The translations under genes and the position numbers were made by a program. Below, piece by piece: positions 23,636 through 32,575 of a stretch of 64,000 bases of DNA. Below the pieces are notes generated by a model. It saw only the letters and a list, made by a program, of their open reading frames with translations. It ran no database searches and had not been told where the DNA came from. This stretch comes from Ketogulonicigenium vulgare WSH-001 (GTDB taxonomy: Bacteria; Pseudomonadota; Alphaproteobacteria; Rhodobacterales; Rhodobacteraceae). Where the stretch lies: NCBI RefSeq assembly GCF_000223375.1, contig NC_017384.1, forward strand, positions 1,430,097-1,494,096, in the 5' to 3' direction. Positions within the stretch are counted from its first letter, which is position 1; every line of letters begins with the position of its first letter.

Positions 23636-25873
23636 GTGAGCGAGAATAGAATTTATGCGCATTCGGGCAAACATGCGGACCGCAGCGATTGGCAGTTGTT
23701 GTCAGATCATCACGACGCTGTTTCCGCGCTTGCCAACGCACGCGGCGTAAAGATCGGATTACCGCTCGCTGCATCCCTTGCTGGCGCATTACATGATTTC
23801 GGAAAGAATGATCCCGCATTTGATCAGGTATTGCAGGGGCGAGATATCCGCGTTGACCATTCTACGGCAGGCGGATGGCTTGCTTTAAAACAAGCCGCGC
23901 CTAAAGATCAACCGACCGCCGAGGCGATCGCCTATACGATCCTAGGTCATCACGCGGGCCTGCCGGACAAGCTAAATGATCAGAATTCGTGTATGACCGC
24001 GCGGATCGAAACATTCAACCGCACAACCAATCCCATTCCGCAAAATCTCATCGCGCAAGAGCCGCCAGATTTTGCCCCTATATCGCACGAGCTGTTCGCC
24101 AAATGTGCCGGGCCTAATCCTGCCTTCAATCTATCGCTTGCGACAAGAATGGTCTTCTCATGTTTGGTCGATGCGGACTTTCGCGACACTGAATCCTATT
24201 ACGCCAAGATTGACGCCTATGATCGGCCGCGTGATTGGCCGAGCCTGCCCGATCTTTTACCCGATCTGCGCGAGCGGTTCGACAACCACATGAACCGCTT
24301 GCCAGATACGGGGGATGTAAATCCAATCCGCCGCCATATTTTGCACCATGTCCGGGCCCAAGCCTCGCAGCGCCCCGGCCTTTTCACGCTTAGCGTTCCA
24401 ACAGGTGGGGGAAAAACGCTGGCGTCCATGGGGTTTGCGCTTGATCACGCCATGGCGCATGGGCATCGACGGATCATCTATGCCATCCCCTACTCCTCGG
24501 TGACCGAGCAGACAGCAGGCACGTTTCGGGATCTGTTCGGCGATGTCGTATTGGAACACCACGCCGCAATAGATGCCAACGAACGAGACGCCGGCCAACG
24601 CGAAAAATTACAGCTTGCAATGGAGGATTGGGCGGCGCCCATCGTTGTCACCACGAATGTACAACTGTTTGAAAGCCTGTTCAGTGCGCGTCCCTCGCGT
24701 GCGCGCAAGCTGCATAATATCGCGGGCGCGGTGATTATTCTGGACGAGGCGCAATGCCTGCCGCGCCATTTGTTGTTACCCACCCTGCGCATGATCGAGT
24801 CGCTTTGCACGCATTATGGCTGCACTGTTGTGCTGTGCACAGCAACGCAACCTGCGTTTGACAGCAGACAGTTGAAAGAAGGCGGCCTCGCGCTGGACGA
24901 TCGCGAACTGGCACCGCAACCTGAACTATTGGCGCAACAATTGCGGCGCGCGCATATCCGACAAGGCGGTGAAATGTCGGATCAGGATTTGATCGATGCC
25001 CTCGCTGGGACAGAACAGGGATTTGTGATCGTAAACAGCCGCGCCCATGCGCTGGAGCTTTTCAAAGCCGCCGAACAGGCGGATATCAAGGGGCTCGTTC
25101 ATTTGACGACGCGCCAATACCCGTCGGACCGCCGGGCCCTGATCGCAGAGATTCGCGAAAAACTGAAGTCCAATCAACCCTGTCGCCTGATTGCCACGAG
25201 CCTGATCGAGGCAGGCGTGGATTTGGATTTCCCTGTCGGCTGGCGCGCCGAAGCTGGGCTGGATAGTTGCGTTCAGGCGGCCGGACGCGTGAACCGCGAA
25301 GGGCGCAGACCGCTAGCGGGCAGTATCTTGACGGTCTTCTCGGCGTCAGATCGCCCCATGCCTGCCGCAATCAAGACATTGGCCGACGCCATGCGCAGCA
25401 CCGCCCGCCGTTTTGACGACCTGCTGAACCCTGCCGCAATGCGCGACTGGTTCGAACATGTTTACTGGCAAGCGGGACCAAAGCTGCTGGATGCCGCGGA
25501 TATTATCGGCAAGCTGCGGGTCGGTCGCGGCGGCACCGATTTTGCGTTCCGCACCATTGCCGAGGCCTATCGGATGATCGACACAACCATGGTGCCGGTA
25601 ATCATTCCCGGCGACGCAATCGCACAGCGGGAAATCGACCGACTGGAGGTTGAGGCTGTATCATCGGGCACGTTGGCGCGTGCATTACAACATTACACAG
25701 TGCAGATCCCGGAAAAATCGCGCGAGGCATTACGCACGAACGGCAAGGGCGATTTTGCGGCACAGCATCTGCGCGGCGCGCAATTCTTTGTGCTGACAGA
25801 CGCCAGCCTGTATCGCAGGGACAGCGGGCTTTGGTGGGAAGGAGCTGACTATATTGCAGACAGCATCTGGTAG
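23636..25873 (+). CDS. cas3: CRISPR-associated helicase-nuclease Cas3, type I-C
   Basis: The 745-residue protein combines an N-terminal HD nuclease (SDHHDAVSAL, then ALHDFGK with the HD pair near residue 60) with a superfamily 2 helicase. Helicase marks are Walker A SVPTGGGKT, the DEAQ box VIILDEAQCLPRH, TSLIEAGVDLDFPV and motif VI QAAGRVNREGR. Cas3 unwinds and degrades DNA marked by Cascade. The GTG at 23636 is chosen because AAGGAT lies about 7 bases upstream. Uniquely in this operon, it is separated from the next cas gene by 381 bases rather than overlapping it. Confidence 0.93.
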   Translation: MSENRIYAHSGKHADRSDWQLLSDHHDAVSALANARGVKIGLPLAASLAGALHDFGKNDPAFDQVLQGRDIRVDHSTAGGWLALKQAAPKDQPTAEAIAYTILGHHAGLPDKLNDQNSCMTARIETFNRTTNPIPQNLIAQEPPDFAPISHELFAKCAGPNPAFNLSLATRMVFSCLVDADFRDTESYYAKIDAYDRPRDWPSLPDLLPDLRERFDNHMNRLPDTGDVNPIRRHILHHVRAQASQRPGLFTLSVPTGGGKTLASMGFALDHAMAHGHRRIIYAIPYSSVTEQTAGTFRDLFGDVVLEHHAAIDANERDAGQREKLQLAMEDWAAPIVVTTNVQLFESLFSARPSRARKLHNIAGAVIILDEAQCLPRHLLLPTLRMIESLCTHYGCTVVLCTATQPAFDSRQLKEGGLALDDRELAPQPELLAQQLRRAHIRQGGEMSDQDLIDALAGTEQGFVIVNSRAHALELFKAAEQADIKGLVHLTTRQYPSDRRALIAEIREKLKSNQPCRLIATSLIEAGVDLDFPVGWRAEAGLDSCVQAAGRVNREGRRPLAGSILTVFSASDRPMPAAIKTLADAMRSTARRFDDLLNPAAMRDWFEHVYWQAGPKLLDAADIIGKLRVGRGGTDFAFRTIAEAYRMIDTTMVPVIIPGDAIAQREIDRLEVEAVSSGTLARALQHYTVQIPEKSREALRTNGKGDFAAQHLRGAQFFVLTDASLYRRDSGLWWEGADYIADSIW

Positions 25874-26086
25874 GGCTTGGTGTAATTTTTAATAGTTTAA
25901 CGTTCTATTAAGAATTCATTCACAGCTCCAAAAACGCATCCGCCTTGTGCGTACGAGTGAAGTCAAGAGGAGATACCTAACACACCCAAGATTACCCACA
26001 CGCCTCACAGATCTTGTTGCAGAGATCCTGATCTTTGCCTTCAAAATCATCAACCAGATTACCTAGCAATGAAAGGCTGACGGCTT
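25874..26086 (+). other. AT-rich spacer between cas3 and the mini-CRISPR
   Basis: This stretch has no gene of normal size. It holds an AT-rich inverted repeat, TTAATAG (25889-25895) and CTATTAA (25905-25911), and a small hairpin, ACGCA/TGCGT (25934-25952). A seven-codon open frame starts GTG at 25957 and ends TAA at 25980 (Met-Lys-Ser-Arg-Gly-Asp-Thr), using the rare-type codons AGA and GGA. A Shine-Dalgarno-like GAGGAGAT lies inside it. If the downstream element is a CreA-type antitoxin, this is where a small toxic RNA would be expected; that is speculation from position. Confidence 0.3.
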
Positions 26087-26187
26087 GTCGCTCTCGCATA
26101 TTCGGGGCTCGGATAGAAATATAGAGTGGCACACTATACCATCACCACTGGCATGGCGTTCGCTATTTATTGCGGGCGCCATCATCA
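26087..26187 (+). ncRNA. candidate one-spacer degenerate mini-CRISPR (CreA/CreR-like RNA)
   Basis: Bases 26087-26120 begin GTCGCTC and end GGATAGAAAT, matching the first 7 and nearly all of the last 10 positions of the array repeat, while the middle has diverged and is two bases longer. A hairpin persists through wobble pairs (GCTCT with GGGGC). About 36 bases follow (26121-26155), the size of array spacers. A second repeat-like unit then starts near 26156, with an 8-bp hairpin GCGTTCGC/GCGGGCGC around the loop TATTTATT. Processing by Cas5c just 5' of CGGATAGAAAT would leave an 11-base handle as for normal crRNAs. The layout fits antitoxin (CreA) or cas-autoregulatory (CreR) crRNA-like genes. 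No target with a TTC PAM was found by eye in nearby promoters. Confidence 0.55.
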
Positions 26188-26254
26188 CTTTTGCCAAATA
26201 CCGCTTGCCAGAATCGATTTCCTAGATAAGTTGACCTTATTTAAAGGAAAAATA

Positions 26255-27019
26255 ATGACTTATGGCATTCGACTGCATATTTGGGGCACGCATGGACTTT
26301 TTACGCGTCCCGAGTTAAAGGTCGAACGTGCCTCATATGATGTGATTACGCCTTCTGCCGCACGCGGGATTCTAGAGGCTATTCATTGGAAACCTGCTAT
26401 TCGCTGGATTGTGGATCGCATCCATGTGCTAGAGCCTATCCGGTTTCAATCCATTCGCCGCAATGAAGTTGGGCATAAGGCCCCTGCGGGGAAAATAAGA
26501 GCTGCGATGAACCGGGGTGATCTGGCTGATTTACAGATTCTGGTGGACCAAGATCGCCAACAGCGTGCGTCAAATGTCCTAGTGGCGCCTGCCTATGTGA
26601 TCGAGGCGCATTTTGATCTGACTGCAAAGGCCGGGCCAGATGATACGGTCGGCAAGCATCTCGATATTTTCAATCGCCGCGCGGCCAAGGGGCAATGCTT
26701 TAATCAGCCCAGCCTTGGCACACGCGAATTCGTCGCGCATTTTGCACTGGTCCCACCGGACGCCGTCATACCGTCCCCTGATGGCCATAGCTGGGGCGCA
26801 ATGTTGCATGCCGGCCAAACCAATGGCGCTCCACGCCCCTCTCGTGCGCCAGAAGCGGAAACGAGCGATCTTGGCTTTGGCACACCGCGTGATCTGGGTT
26901 TCATGTTATGGGATATCGATCATATGGCGCCTGGGCGTCCCTCGATGTTCTTTCGCGCCACCTTGCGCGATGGCATTGTCGAAATACCCGCCCCCGGCAG
27001 CCCGGATATCAAACGATGA
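26255..27019 (+). CDS. cas5: Cas5c (Cas5d), pre-crRNA endonuclease and Cascade subunit
   Basis: The 254-residue RAMP protein opens MTYGIRLHIWGTHGLFTRPE and continues YDVITPSAARGILEAIHWKP, the N-terminal signature of type I-C Cas5. In this subtype Cas5 replaces Cas6: it cuts the repeat hairpin and stays on the 5' handle. The ATG at 26255 follows AAAGGAAAA; the frame is open further upstream but that part crosses the mini-CRISPR. The stop overlaps cas8c by four bases. Its own promoter probably lies in the 381-base gap after cas3. Confidence 0.92.
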   Translation: MTYGIRLHIWGTHGLFTRPELKVERASYDVITPSAARGILEAIHWKPAIRWIVDRIHVLEPIRFQSIRRNEVGHKAPAGKIRAAMNRGDLADLQILVDQDRQQRASNVLVAPAYVIEAHFDLTAKAGPDDTVGKHLDIFNRRAAKGQCFNQPSLGTREFVAHFALVPPDAVIPSPDGHSWGAMLHAGQTNGAPRPSRAPEAETSDLGFGTPRDLGFMLWDIDHMAPGRPSMFFRATLRDGIVEIPAPGSPDIKR

Positions 27020-28785
27020 GCGTGCTTTCATCGCTATCGCGCGCCTATGAACGGCTGCCAGATGCGCCTCCGTATGGCTTCTCCTCCGAGAAAATCGGTT
27101 TTTGCATCGTACTGAACGCAGATGGGTCTGTTCACGATGTCATAGACAAGCGTCAGGACGATAAAAAGCGTAGCCCCGCCATGCTTTTGGTGCCGCAAGC
27201 GGTAAAACGCACCGCGGGGATCGCACCGAATTTCCTTTGGGACAAAACGGCCTATGTTCTGGGCGTAACCGCAGGCGAAGGCAAACGCACGGCCGATGAG
27301 CATGCCAAGTTTCGCGAAATGCATGTGCAATGGCTGGCCGGGACACAGGACGAGGGCCTGCTGGCACTGCTGCGTTTCCTTGACGCTTGGACCGCCGACA
27401 GATTTACTGCACCGGTCTGGCCAGAGGATATGCGCGATCAGAATATCGTCTTTGCCCTCGCCAGCGAGTACCGCGAACGCTACATTCACGAACGTTCTGG
27501 CGCGAAAGAGATCTGGCAGCGGCTTGGCACAGAAGGTGCGTCAGATCCGCAGATTTGCCTGGTCAGTGGCGACCCCGCCCCCATCGCGCGTTTGCACCCC
27601 TCGATCAAAGGCGTCTGGGGTGCGCAAACCGCTGGCGCGAGTTTGGTGTCATTCAACCTCGACGCGTTTACGTCCTACGGCCACGAACAAGGCGACAACG
27701 CCCCCGTGTCCGAGGTCGCAACCTTTCAGTATACGACCGCATTGAACCGCTTCCTTGAAAAAGACAGTGGGCATCGTCTGCAGATTGGCGATGCCTCGAC
27801 CGTCTTTTGGGCGGACGCGTCTGGTTTGATTTCTGAAATGGCGGAATCGCTGTTCGCAGGCATGTTCGACACGCCCGAGGCCGCACATGATGACGATAGT
27901 ATAGAAACCAAAAAGATCGCCGCCAAGCTAGAGCGAATTCGGCGCGGCGAACGGTTGGACGAGGTCGAACCCCAATTGACCCAAGGGGTGCGCTTTCATG
28001 TTCTAAGCCTTGCCCCTAATGCCGCGCGCCTTTCTGTGCGTTTCTATTGGGAGAACGATTTTGCGCAACTGACCCGCAATTATCAGGCCTATCTTGAAGA
28101 TACAAAGATCGAACCGCCACCGCGCGATGGCTGGCCCCCTCTGTGGCGCTATCTGGTCGAACTTGCGGTATTGAACAAGCGCGAGAATATCCCGCCCAAT
28201 CTGGCCGGCGAATGGACGCGCGCCATCTTAACCCGAACGCCCTATCCGATGACATTGCTTGCAACAGCGCTGATGCGGATCAGGTCAGACGGCGAGGTCA
28301 ATGCGCTGCGGGCGGCAGTTTTAAAATCCGTCCTGGTCCGAAATTTCAATAAGGAGGCCCCGGTGGCGCTTAATCCTACGTTTAGTGACAGCAAGGGCTA
28401 TCTGCTTGGCCGCCTCTTTGCCGCCTATGAAGAAGTCCAACGCGAGGCGCTTGGCCGCAATGTCAACGCCACGATCAAGGACAAATTCTATGGCGCGGCC
28501 TCGGCCTCACCGCAAAAGGTGTTTGCCACCCTTGATAGCGGCGCACAGAACCACTTTACCAAATTGCGCAAAATCAATGCTGGCCGCGCGGTCAACCTTG
28601 ACCAGCTGATCATGTCGATCATGGATCAGATGTCGCCAGACAAAGACCCGATCCCGGCCTTTCTCAATGCGCCGGAACAGGGCCTGTTCGGCCTTGGCTA
28701 TTATCACCAGCGCAGTGATTTTTTCCGCAAACGCGATACCAAAACTGACTCAGTGACTGAGACCCAACCGGAGACCACCGCATGA
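27016..28785 (+). CDS. cas8c: Cas8c (Csd1), large Cascade subunit
   Basis: The 589-residue Csd1-family protein starts MSVLSSLSRAYERLPDAPPY and shows the family features CLVSGDPAPIARLHPSIKGV and SFNLDAFTSYGHEQGDNAPV. Cas8c recognises the PAM and helps open target DNA. In type I-C it also supplies the small-subunit function from an internal start within its C-terminal part; I did not locate that start with confidence. It overlaps cas5 and cas7 by four bases at each end (ATGA), so all three are likely co-translated. Confidence 0.93.
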   Translation: MSVLSSLSRAYERLPDAPPYGFSSEKIGFCIVLNADGSVHDVIDKRQDDKKRSPAMLLVPQAVKRTAGIAPNFLWDKTAYVLGVTAGEGKRTADEHAKFREMHVQWLAGTQDEGLLALLRFLDAWTADRFTAPVWPEDMRDQNIVFALASEYRERYIHERSGAKEIWQRLGTEGASDPQICLVSGDPAPIARLHPSIKGVWGAQTAGASLVSFNLDAFTSYGHEQGDNAPVSEVATFQYTTALNRFLEKDSGHRLQIGDASTVFWADASGLISEMAESLFAGMFDTPEAAHDDDSIETKKIAAKLERIRRGERLDEVEPQLTQGVRFHVLSLAPNAARLSVRFYWENDFAQLTRNYQAYLEDTKIEPPPRDGWPPLWRYLVELAVLNKRENIPPNLAGEWTRAILTRTPYPMTLLATALMRIRSDGEVNALRAAVLKSVLVRNFNKEAPVALNPTFSDSKGYLLGRLFAAYEEVQREALGRNVNATIKDKFYGAASASPQKVFATLDSGAQNHFTKLRKINAGRAVNLDQLIMSIMDQMSPDKDPIPAFLNAPEQGLFGLGYYHQRSDFFRKRDTKTDSVTETQPETTA

Positions 28786-29732
28786 CTACGCTATCCCGCC
28801 GCCATGATTTCGTGCTGATCTTCGATGTAACCAACGGCAACCCCAACGGCGACCCTGATGCGGGAAATCAGCCCCGCCTGGACCCAGAGACCGGGCATGG
28901 CCTCGTTTCGGATGTCAGCCTAAAACGCAAGATCCGCAACTATGTAGAGCTGGCGCATGAGGGCAAGGACGGCCATCATATCTATGTTCAGGAGGGTGCG
29001 ATCCTGAATGAAAAGCATCGGGCCGCCTATATCGCCAAACGCCCTGGCGATGAAAAAGCCAAGACTGACAAAAAGCTAAACCCCAAAGACGATGCCGAAG
29101 CCAAGGAATTGCGCGACTGGATGTGCGCGAATTTCTTTGACGTGCGCACCTTTGGCGCGGTGATGTCGACGGGCATCAATTGCGGGCAGGTCAAGGGACC
29201 GGTGCAAATGACTTTCGCCACATCGGTAGAACGCATTTTGCCGGCCGAGATCACAATTACTCGCATGGCTGCGACCAACGAAGCTGAAAAGAAAAAGGCC
29301 GAAGAAGGCTCCGACGGCGATCAGCGCACCGAAAATCGTACAATGGGGCGCAAACATATCGTGCCGTATGGCCTCTATGTCGCGCATGGCTTTGTTTCGG
29401 CCAAATTCGCCGAGCGGACTGGATTTTCTGAGGCGGATCTTGATCTGCTGCTAGAGGCCCTGAAGAACGCCTTTGAGCATGATCGCTCGGCCGCGCGGGG
29501 CGAAATGGCGACCCGCAAGCTGATCGTATTCAAACATGAAAACGCACTCGGCAATGCCCCCGCGCATGAGCTGTTCGACAGGGTTCGCATCGGGCGCAAT
29601 CTGGCCGGAGAGTTCCGCCCCATCGGCGACAGCCGCCTCGACAACCAACCCCCTGCCCGTAAATTCGGTGACTATCTGATCGAGATCGACCGCGAGGCCC
29701 TGCCCGCGGGCGTCGACATTATCGAGTTGTAA
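28782..29732 (+). CDS. cas7: Cas7c (Csd2), Cascade backbone subunit
   Basis: The 316-residue Csd2-family RAMP starts with LSRRHDFVLIFDVTNGNPNG and PDAGNQPRLDPETGHGLVSD, the typical N-terminus, and contains FDVRTFGAVMSTG. Several copies line the crRNA spacer in the complex. It overlaps cas8c by four bases and is followed after two bases by cas4. Length is normal for the family. Confidence 0.94.
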   Translation: MTTLSRRHDFVLIFDVTNGNPNGDPDAGNQPRLDPETGHGLVSDVSLKRKIRNYVELAHEGKDGHHIYVQEGAILNEKHRAAYIAKRPGDEKAKTDKKLNPKDDAEAKELRDWMCANFFDVRTFGAVMSTGINCGQVKGPVQMTFATSVERILPAEITITRMAATNEAEKKKAEEGSDGDQRTENRTMGRKHIVPYGLYVAHGFVSAKFAERTGFSEADLDLLLEALKNAFEHDRSAARGEMATRKLIVFKHENALGNAPAHELFDRVRIGRNLAGEFRPIGDSRLDNQPPARKFGDYLIEIDREALPAGVDIIEL

Positions 29733-31881: not shown

Positions 31882-32575
31882 GTCGCTCCCCCCACGGGAG
31901 CGTGGATAGAAACCCCGATCCAACCGCGAAGTGGGCCAGCCGCGATGGTCGCTCCCCCCACGGGAGCGTGGATAGAAACACTGTCACTCCGACTTGGAGA
32001 GCATCTACAATGACGTCGCTCCCCCCACGGGAGCGTGGATAGAACCAGTTGGCGTGCGGGCGTCCACATCTGAATGATGGTCGCTCCCCCCACGGGAGCG
32101 TGGATAGAAACTCATTGTAGATGGTGGTATCGAAACGCGACACCTGTCGCTCCCCCCACGGGAGCGTGGATAGAAACTCCCATAAAAAAACCCGCCTCTA
32201 AGGGCGGGCTGGTCGCTCCCCCCACGGGAGCGTGGATAGAAACTGCTTCCGGTAAAACTCCACCGCAGCGTGGAACGTCGCTCCCCCCACGGGAGCGTGG
32301 ATAGAAACGATGCCGTCCTCGCGTCCCTCCAATCCAGCGCGCGGTCGCTCCCCCACGGGAGCGTGGATAGAAACAGCGACCAATGGCGCGTAGCGACACC
32401 CTATCAGGACGTCGCTCCCCCCACGGGAGCGTGGATAGAAACTACGCTATGACCCAGATCCTCCGGGGGCGCGCAACGTCGCTCCCCCCACGGGAGCGTG
32501 GATAGAAACCCCAGCAGGCGCGGCGCAGACGACAGGCGGGACGGTCGCTCCCCCCACGGGAGCGGGGATAGAAAG
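31882..32575 (+). CRISPR. type I-C CRISPR array, 11 repeats and 10 spacers
   Basis: The 32-bp repeat begins GTCGCTCCCCCCACGGGAGC and ends GTGGATAGAAAC. It folds into a 7-bp hairpin (CGCTCCC/GGGAGCG) and leaves an 11-base handle, as in type I-C. Repeats start at 31882, 31948, 32015, 32080, 32146, 32212, 32277, 32344, 32411, 32478 and 32544; spacers are 33-36 bases. Variants: the third repeat ends ACC (or lacks one A), the eighth lacks one C, and the last has G at position 22 and ends in G, marking the trailer end. The fifth spacer (32178-32211) is an intrinsic-terminator-like sequence. The second and fourth share a 12-base segment in opposite orientation. Confidence 0.97.

Follow-up and report, generated by a model that had tools for sequence, protein, structure and literature searches.

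A probable worn CreTA-type unit in the cas3–cas5c gap of Ketogulonicigenium vulgare, with guide–target pairs at the same place in type I-C relatives

Why does the type I-C CRISPR (clustered regularly interspaced short palindromic repeats) operon of Ketogulonicigenium vulgare WSH-001, in which the cas frames otherwise overlap or nearly touch, keep 381 bases between cas3 and cas5c? We address this question in a window of 64,000 nucleotides, the whole stretch of DNA analysed here (NC_017384.1, positions 1,430,097 to 1,494,096). The gap is bordered upstream by cas3 (23636 to 25873, plus strand; TIGR01587 and TIGR01596 above cut-off) and downstream by cas5c, the presumed processing nuclease (26255 to 27019, plus strand; TIGR01876 above cut-off), and these frame coordinates bear out an earlier note made from the letters of the window, which had drawn attention to the gap: cas3–cas5c is the sole pair in the cas operon parted in this way. 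The same note proposed a degenerate one-spacer mini-array here and assigned it to the CreA and CreR guides of type I systems; CreTA modules with RNA toxins have been published for types I-B and I-F (PMC8501985, PMC10097628; these and all papers named below are cited from part of their text). We conclude that the gap likely holds a worn, probably non-functional CreTA-type module of a real type I-C family. For that family as a whole, we favour on balance a picture in which the space between cas3 and cas5c serves type I-C loci, mostly alphaproteobacterial ones but also at least one from elsewhere, as a shared cassette slot. Its crRNA-like guides would act through Cascade to restrain unrelated but conserved families of micro-peptide toxins, which form amphipathic or membrane helices where the unit has one orientation and are cationic and of beta type where it has the other. 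Payloads would be swapped, decayed or emptied very fast, and the window copy would be a unit in decay.

A degenerate repeat and its guide between cas3 and cas5c

The element opens with a degenerate CRISPR repeat, psiR1 (26087 to 26120, plus strand; GTCGCTC...GGATAGAAAT), which retains both ends of the array repeat (GTCGCTCCCCCCACGGGAGCGTGGATAGAAAC) in register and closes with the 11 bases of the expected 5' handle (26110 to 26120). Throughout the 3.28 Mb genome the pattern GTCGCTC-N12..22-GGATAGAAA occurs at 11 places, 1 in the gap and 10 in the array, and a reversed-pattern control at none. Because the end pair is confined to gap and array, the repeat-like ends described in the earlier note do not owe their presence to chance, and a degenerate repeat outside the array and inside the cas locus is what a CreTA module has. 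Downstream lies psiS, a spacer-like guide with a near-palindromic start (26121 to 26152, plus strand), followed by a strong hairpin with a T-rich tail (26153 to 26182, plus strand) that is probably a terminator or the 3' handle of the guide RNA. This hairpin comprises 11 base pairs, and the stretch 26150 to 26186 folds at -19.3 (z -4.5; 0 of 200 shuffles as good). A second repeat-like hairpin had been claimed at this place; the hairpin stands but its descent from a repeat is not supported, and with CATCACTTTT coming after it, it fits a terminator-like pattern (1 found vs 0.5 in shuffles). The first 19 bases of the guide (26121 to 26139) form a near-perfect palindrome, TATAGAGTGGCACACTATA counted from 26120, that is unrepeated elsewhere in the genome. 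A search of 25800 to 26300 against Rfam returned SraB (E 0.017, 23.5 bits vs a gathering score of 130), which we take as chance.

Guides and targets in type I-C relatives

Genomes with a Cas5c match, the own genome counted each time, numbered 19 of 394 in the family, 15 of 385 in the class and 32 of 398 in the phylum (searched with the Cas5c family model), and from the GTDB collection 80 loci were kept of at least 587 found. The gap between cas3 and cas5c in these relatives is mostly either short (below about 120 bases) or about 200 to 480 bases long, with few cases between or beyond. Scoring was applied to loci with a gap of 130 to 600 bases (n = 51) and identified cas3 and cas5c starts, after removal of seven duplicates, second hits or loci with an in-gap array (L001, L004, L005, L026, L027, L106, L124); in the phylum follow-up, L170 and L173 were excluded as duplicates, L175 equals L074, and the gap of L168 equals that of L105. 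The repeat-end motif GG[AG]TNGAAAN stands in the gap of 37 of the 51 long-gap loci, giving 38 elements in total. Classes were assigned by eye: class A has its guide on the cas strand, class B is the reversed unit, and in a GIY-YIG-like class of 11 loci (L007, L010, L028, L038, L042, L045, L069-L071, L082, L105) the slot is filled by a gene of about 100 codons, which we take to be GIY-YIG-like, and holds no repeat-like element. The gap of L106 (2248 bases) contains an entire CRISPR array on the minus strand.

The bases after each element were read as its guide, and the best match was sought blind to any protospacer adjacent motif (PAM) in the gap, extended by 150 bases into cas3 and into the beginning of cas5c, with a score over positions 1 to 17 without 6 and 12 (maximum 15). 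A score of at least 11 was reached by 34 of 38 elements, 30 of which have a TTC PAM before the site, as against a mean of 9.6 among 1900 cross-locus guide–region pairs, of which 183 reach 11, 31 reach 12 and 2.5% have TTC. Only the second L014 hit, L031, L073 and L088 stay below 11, and L041, L121, L123 and the window copy reach it without TTC. Among the 32 elements with at least 11 and a PAM of TTC, GTC or GCC, positions 1 to 5 match in 30 to 31, positions 7 to 11 in 27 to 32 and positions 13 to 15 in 24 to 30, compared with only 6, 6 and 8 elements for positions 6, 12 and 18. Selection by score favours the scored positions, and the low matching at 6 and 12 is a fair reading because both are unscored. 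The periodicity is that of pairing by type I Cascade. Type I-C relatives thus share with CreTA modules a guide that matches, in seed and PAM, a site within its own gap, and published CreA guides use positions 1 to 5 and 7 to 11 and a TTC PAM (PMC8501985). L121 and L123, both from one genome, score 15/15 with mismatches only at 6 and 12 and have the PAMs GCC and GTC, respectively. For L041 (class B), a TTC site near the promoter fits the guide by eye with one base skipped after position 5, and the ungapped scan places its score of 11 elsewhere.

This rule was fixed on the loci collected first and held on those of the class and phylum, which were fetched afterwards. All seven later long-gap loci of the class—three of one genus, two from one genome—carry the motif and score at least 11, five of them with TTC. 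Among the 28 later phylum loci that remained of 30 there are four gaps above 130 bases, and the motif stands in two of them: L175, which repeats L074, and L169, a locus from another class than the window's that scores 15/15 with TTC. Stems of the psiR1 type beside the handle stand out moderately (22 of the 38 have a shuffle p below 0.1), and 3' hairpins at -10 or better occur in 25 of 37 elements vs 9 of 20 mononucleotide-shuffled controls, so that only strong hairpins count. The promoter match after the PAM averages 7.9 of 12 vs 6.7 in shuffled sequence and reaches p below 0.05 in 5 of 20 relatives only.

Peptide frames and turnover of the slot

In most class A units the target is found where the gap begins, and in some units a -35 box adjoins the PAM (TTGACA in L002, L029 and L112). 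In 12 class A loci, all with scores of 12 to 15 and TTC, an open reading frame (ORF) of 26 to 33 residues stands between target and guide. Five loci share a 31-residue family (consensus MxFKPPKPxRxLExLLECxALALRxVLKLLP), an FW motif marks a 33-residue family in L063, L074 and L086, and the other class A ORFs have 26 to 30 residues; by simple indices, class A peptides are hydrophobic or amphipathic-helical. Where an ORF is seen in class B, it encodes a cationic peptide of 26 to 32 residues with beta-type amphipathicity. By codon position, the 31-residue family has 105/75/201 changes and a set of four class B peptides 61/25/105; both favour the third position, so that the peptide and not the RNA alone is under selection in these two families, and the FW family has a weaker third-position bias (50/43/70). 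Searches of Pfam with five peptides and of NCBIfam with four gave nothing above cut-off and one weak transmembrane match (E 0.043).

Several units depart from this layout. The ORF scan lists nothing family-like in the class B loci L037, L088 and L094, L014, L058 and L110 have guide and TTC target with no intact class A ORF seen by eye, and the class A ORF of L046 looks broken by eye. L113 to L115, three loci of one genus with gaps of 199 to 201 bases, have a guide that matches the promoter just upstream of itself and of cas5c, 58 to 60 bases away and with no ORF between, and they look like self-repressing CreR-type units in type I-C.

These loci show the layout, the PAM, a periodic pairing and, in two peptide families, codon-level conservation; transcription, processing, repression and toxicity we infer, along the following lines. 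In an intact type I-C unit, a small toxin-like peptide gene would sit behind a promoter, and the same gap would yield a guide RNA of one spacer and a degenerate repeat, which Cas5c may cut and Cascade may load. Partial pairing (positions 1 to 5, 7 to 11 and about 13 to 16) would then bring Cascade to the TTC-flanked promoter site and hold the peptide gene silent, and loss of Cascade would release the peptide.

Turnover in the slot was followed on a Cas5c tree with 104 rows, from which 12 loci and rows below 180 residues were excluded and in which two identical rows were merged. Class A (17 rows) requires 16 changes vs 16.1 with shuffled labels and class B (13 rows) 13 vs 12.5. Slight clustering is seen for the short-gap class (28 vs 34.9; 6 of 500 shuffles as low) and the GIY-YIG-like class (9 vs 10.6; 32 of 500), and all labels jointly require 39 changes vs 45.9 (0 of 200). 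These counts indicate that A and B units are scattered while some signal of kinship is left. Two Pannonibacter loci with near-identical Cas5c have gaps of 483 vs 15 bases.

The window copy, its alternatives and known systems

The window guide matches a target-like site on the minus strand at 25892 to 25908 (ATAGAACGTTAAACTAT), which scores 12/15 with matches at positions 1 to 5, 8, 11 and 13 to 17. Shuffled guides do as well in 16 of 20000 cases at the place of this site and in 36 of 3000 over the entire region, and in a separate test on two copies of the window locus in 4 of 200 and 0 of 200. From site to psiR1 reference point it is 176 bases. Of the 12 ORF-bearing class A loci, 10 have a distance of 153 to 184, and the other two are L018 with 82 and L063 with 210.

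A number of results weigh against reading the gap as a CreTA-type unit. At the PAM position (25909 to 25911, minus strand) stands TTA, and the seed is mismatched at 7, 9 and 10. The window guide reaches 12 against its own complement as well, a tie explained by the ATAG-N9-CTAT inverted repeat that guide and site each form, and of 37 foreign guides 2 score 12 in this region too. A consensus scan of the window gave no promoter (p 0.60), a result of little weight, as the same scan is not significant in 15 of 20 relatives either. psiR1 (34 bases) folds at -5.4 kcal/mol, no better than shuffled sequence (z 0.33; 129 of 200 equal or better), compared with -13 for the array repeat (5 of 200), and the GCTCT/GGGGC stem next to the handle has a shuffle p of 0.19, so that the diverged centre cannot be said to fold still, as had been claimed. 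Two hidden Markov models of class A peptides find nothing in the window beyond what shuffled gaps give (1351 and 476 of 2000 score equally). Finally, one other genome of the genus and a plasmid blastn of the gap yielded no intact copy in a closer relative, and decay is to that extent a deduction.

The toxin itself is hard to discern. A GTG frame of 39 residues (25947 to 26066, plus strand) has a hydrophobic C-terminal half and no Shine-Dalgarno sequence before its GTG; by eye we had considered it as a relic of a class A toxin, the models do not support this, and it stays a weak candidate. The Shine-Dalgarno-like AAGAGGAG (25965 to 25972, plus strand) is not closely followed by any ATG, GTG or TTG. 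We therefore group the window copy with the type I-C family by position and putative descent, although two defining features of a working CreTA fail to appear in its sequence: a PAM-flanked promoter site matched at seed positions 1 to 5 and 7 to 11, and a toxin gene between target and guide. With PAM and part of the seed changed and the toxin unrecognisable, it most likely represses nothing at present. The membership in the CreA/CreR class proposed earlier thus holds in position, in architecture and in the guide, TTC target and Cascade-type pairing of the relatives, but not as a working unit in this genome.

That the unit still works, through a relaxed PAM or an RNA toxin not recognisable by sequence, seems improbable to us, though its site lies at the homologous place and matches at 1 to 5 and 13 to 17. 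L121 and L123 with their full scores show that the PAM is not always TTC, and the toxins described for I-B and I-F are RNAs that are unrelated in sequence (PMC8501985, PMC10097628). However, the published seed requires positions 1 to 5 and 7 to 11 (PMC8501985), of which 7, 9 and 10 fail here, and the lack of a start codon behind the Shine-Dalgarno-like site conflicts with known toxins, which, in the text available, require translation or a start codon.

Slightly less probable still is a CreR-type autoregulator, the guide of which would repress a cas promoter (that of the cas5c operon or cas3) and not a toxin. This layout exists in L113 to L115, but the target-like site of the window lies 176 bases upstream, a distance like that of toxin-bearing units. 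In agreement with the earlier note, which had found no convincing TTC target, the best match beside a TTC, within the gap and at its edges, is 8/15, and no cas promoter with a PAM emerged as a target of the guide. The genome-wide search for TTC plus seed that the note had suggested gave no exact match and 39 sites with 1 to 2 mismatches (vs 21 in the reversed control), only one of which is in the window (16715), outside the cas operon. Between antitoxin and autoregulator, which the note had left undecided, the window copy leans to antitoxin because its target-like site and spacing resemble toxin-bearing relatives.

We give the least credence to a stray dead repeat with no regulatory past, the match being chance or a transcription-factor palindrome (TATAGAGTGGCACACTATA): guide start and target-like site are indeed both ATAG-N9-CTAT inverted repeats and psiR1 folds poorly, but most long-gap relatives hold guide–target units exactly here, which makes an unrelated repeat unlikely, and the 19-base palindrome lacks a second exact copy and has four looser sites (one with 2 and three with 3 mismatches) vs 8 for the control, on which we rejected the transcription-factor reading.

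A worn CreTA-type unit, our preferred reading, has a known counterpart in the type I-E CreTA of Citrobacter rodentium, where a translated 96-bp ORF lies between cas3 and casA (PMC12055562). Like the type I-C units, it has the toxin ORF in the gap behind cas3 and a guide-like RNA partly matching a PAM-flanked promoter site, and its toxin must be translated; it differs in its ATG PAM, its opposite-strand guide and, in the text available, the lack of reported ORF homologues (PMC12055562), whereas type I-C units have TTC and conserved peptide families. Haloarchaeal I-B CreTA shares the degenerate repeat, the match at 1 to 5 and 7 to 11 and the TTC at the toxin promoter, and a terminator may there stand in for the second repeat (PMC8501985, PMC9458426). 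Its toxins are RNAs that sequester rare transfer RNAs (PMC8501985, PMC9458426), in contrast to the codon-conserved type I-C peptides, and the processing nuclease is Cas5c and not Cas6 in type I-C, unlike in haloarchaeal type I-B. Acinetobacter I-F CreTA is likewise bacterial, with a CRISPR RNA (crRNA)-like antitoxin that uses the CRISPR effector, but it belongs to another subtype and has an RNA toxin with a hairpin and a start codon (PMC10097628). CreR guides, as reviewed in PMC12737573, have a layout like that of L113 to L115, and the spacing in the window fits toxin-bearing units instead. CrePA resembles the type I-C units in that a crRNA-like guide restrains a protein toxin, but its CreP has a KilA-N domain (PMC12737573), whereas the type I-C peptides have 26 to 33 residues and no known domain. 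The literature searched yielded no CreTA of type I-C, although single I-C cases may stand in supplements, and the available parts of PMC9458426, PMC12737573 and PMC10097628 make no mention of type I-C.

CreTA toxins share little sequence and are hence hard to find (PMC8501985). One slot, one PAM and a match with a 6-base period amount to a simple rule by which a guide is located along with its target and a toxin candidate in many genomes. Were the peptides toxic, type I-C Cascade would protect itself by means of translated micro-toxins and the cell would come to rely on its defence system, which would bear on the persistence of type I-C loci and on what anti-CRISPR proteins trigger.

The remainder of the type I-C locus follows in the order cas5c, a long frame, cas7 (28782 to 29732), further frames and an array of 11 repeats (31882 to 32575, plus strand). 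NCBIfam names cas3, cas5c and cas7; by position only, we take the long frame after cas5c for cas8c, and further frames stand where cas4, cas1 and cas2 are normally found. Two array repeats have altered ends, at 32006 to 32046 (GGATAGAACC) and, as the last repeat, at 32535 to 32575 (GGGGATAGAAAG).
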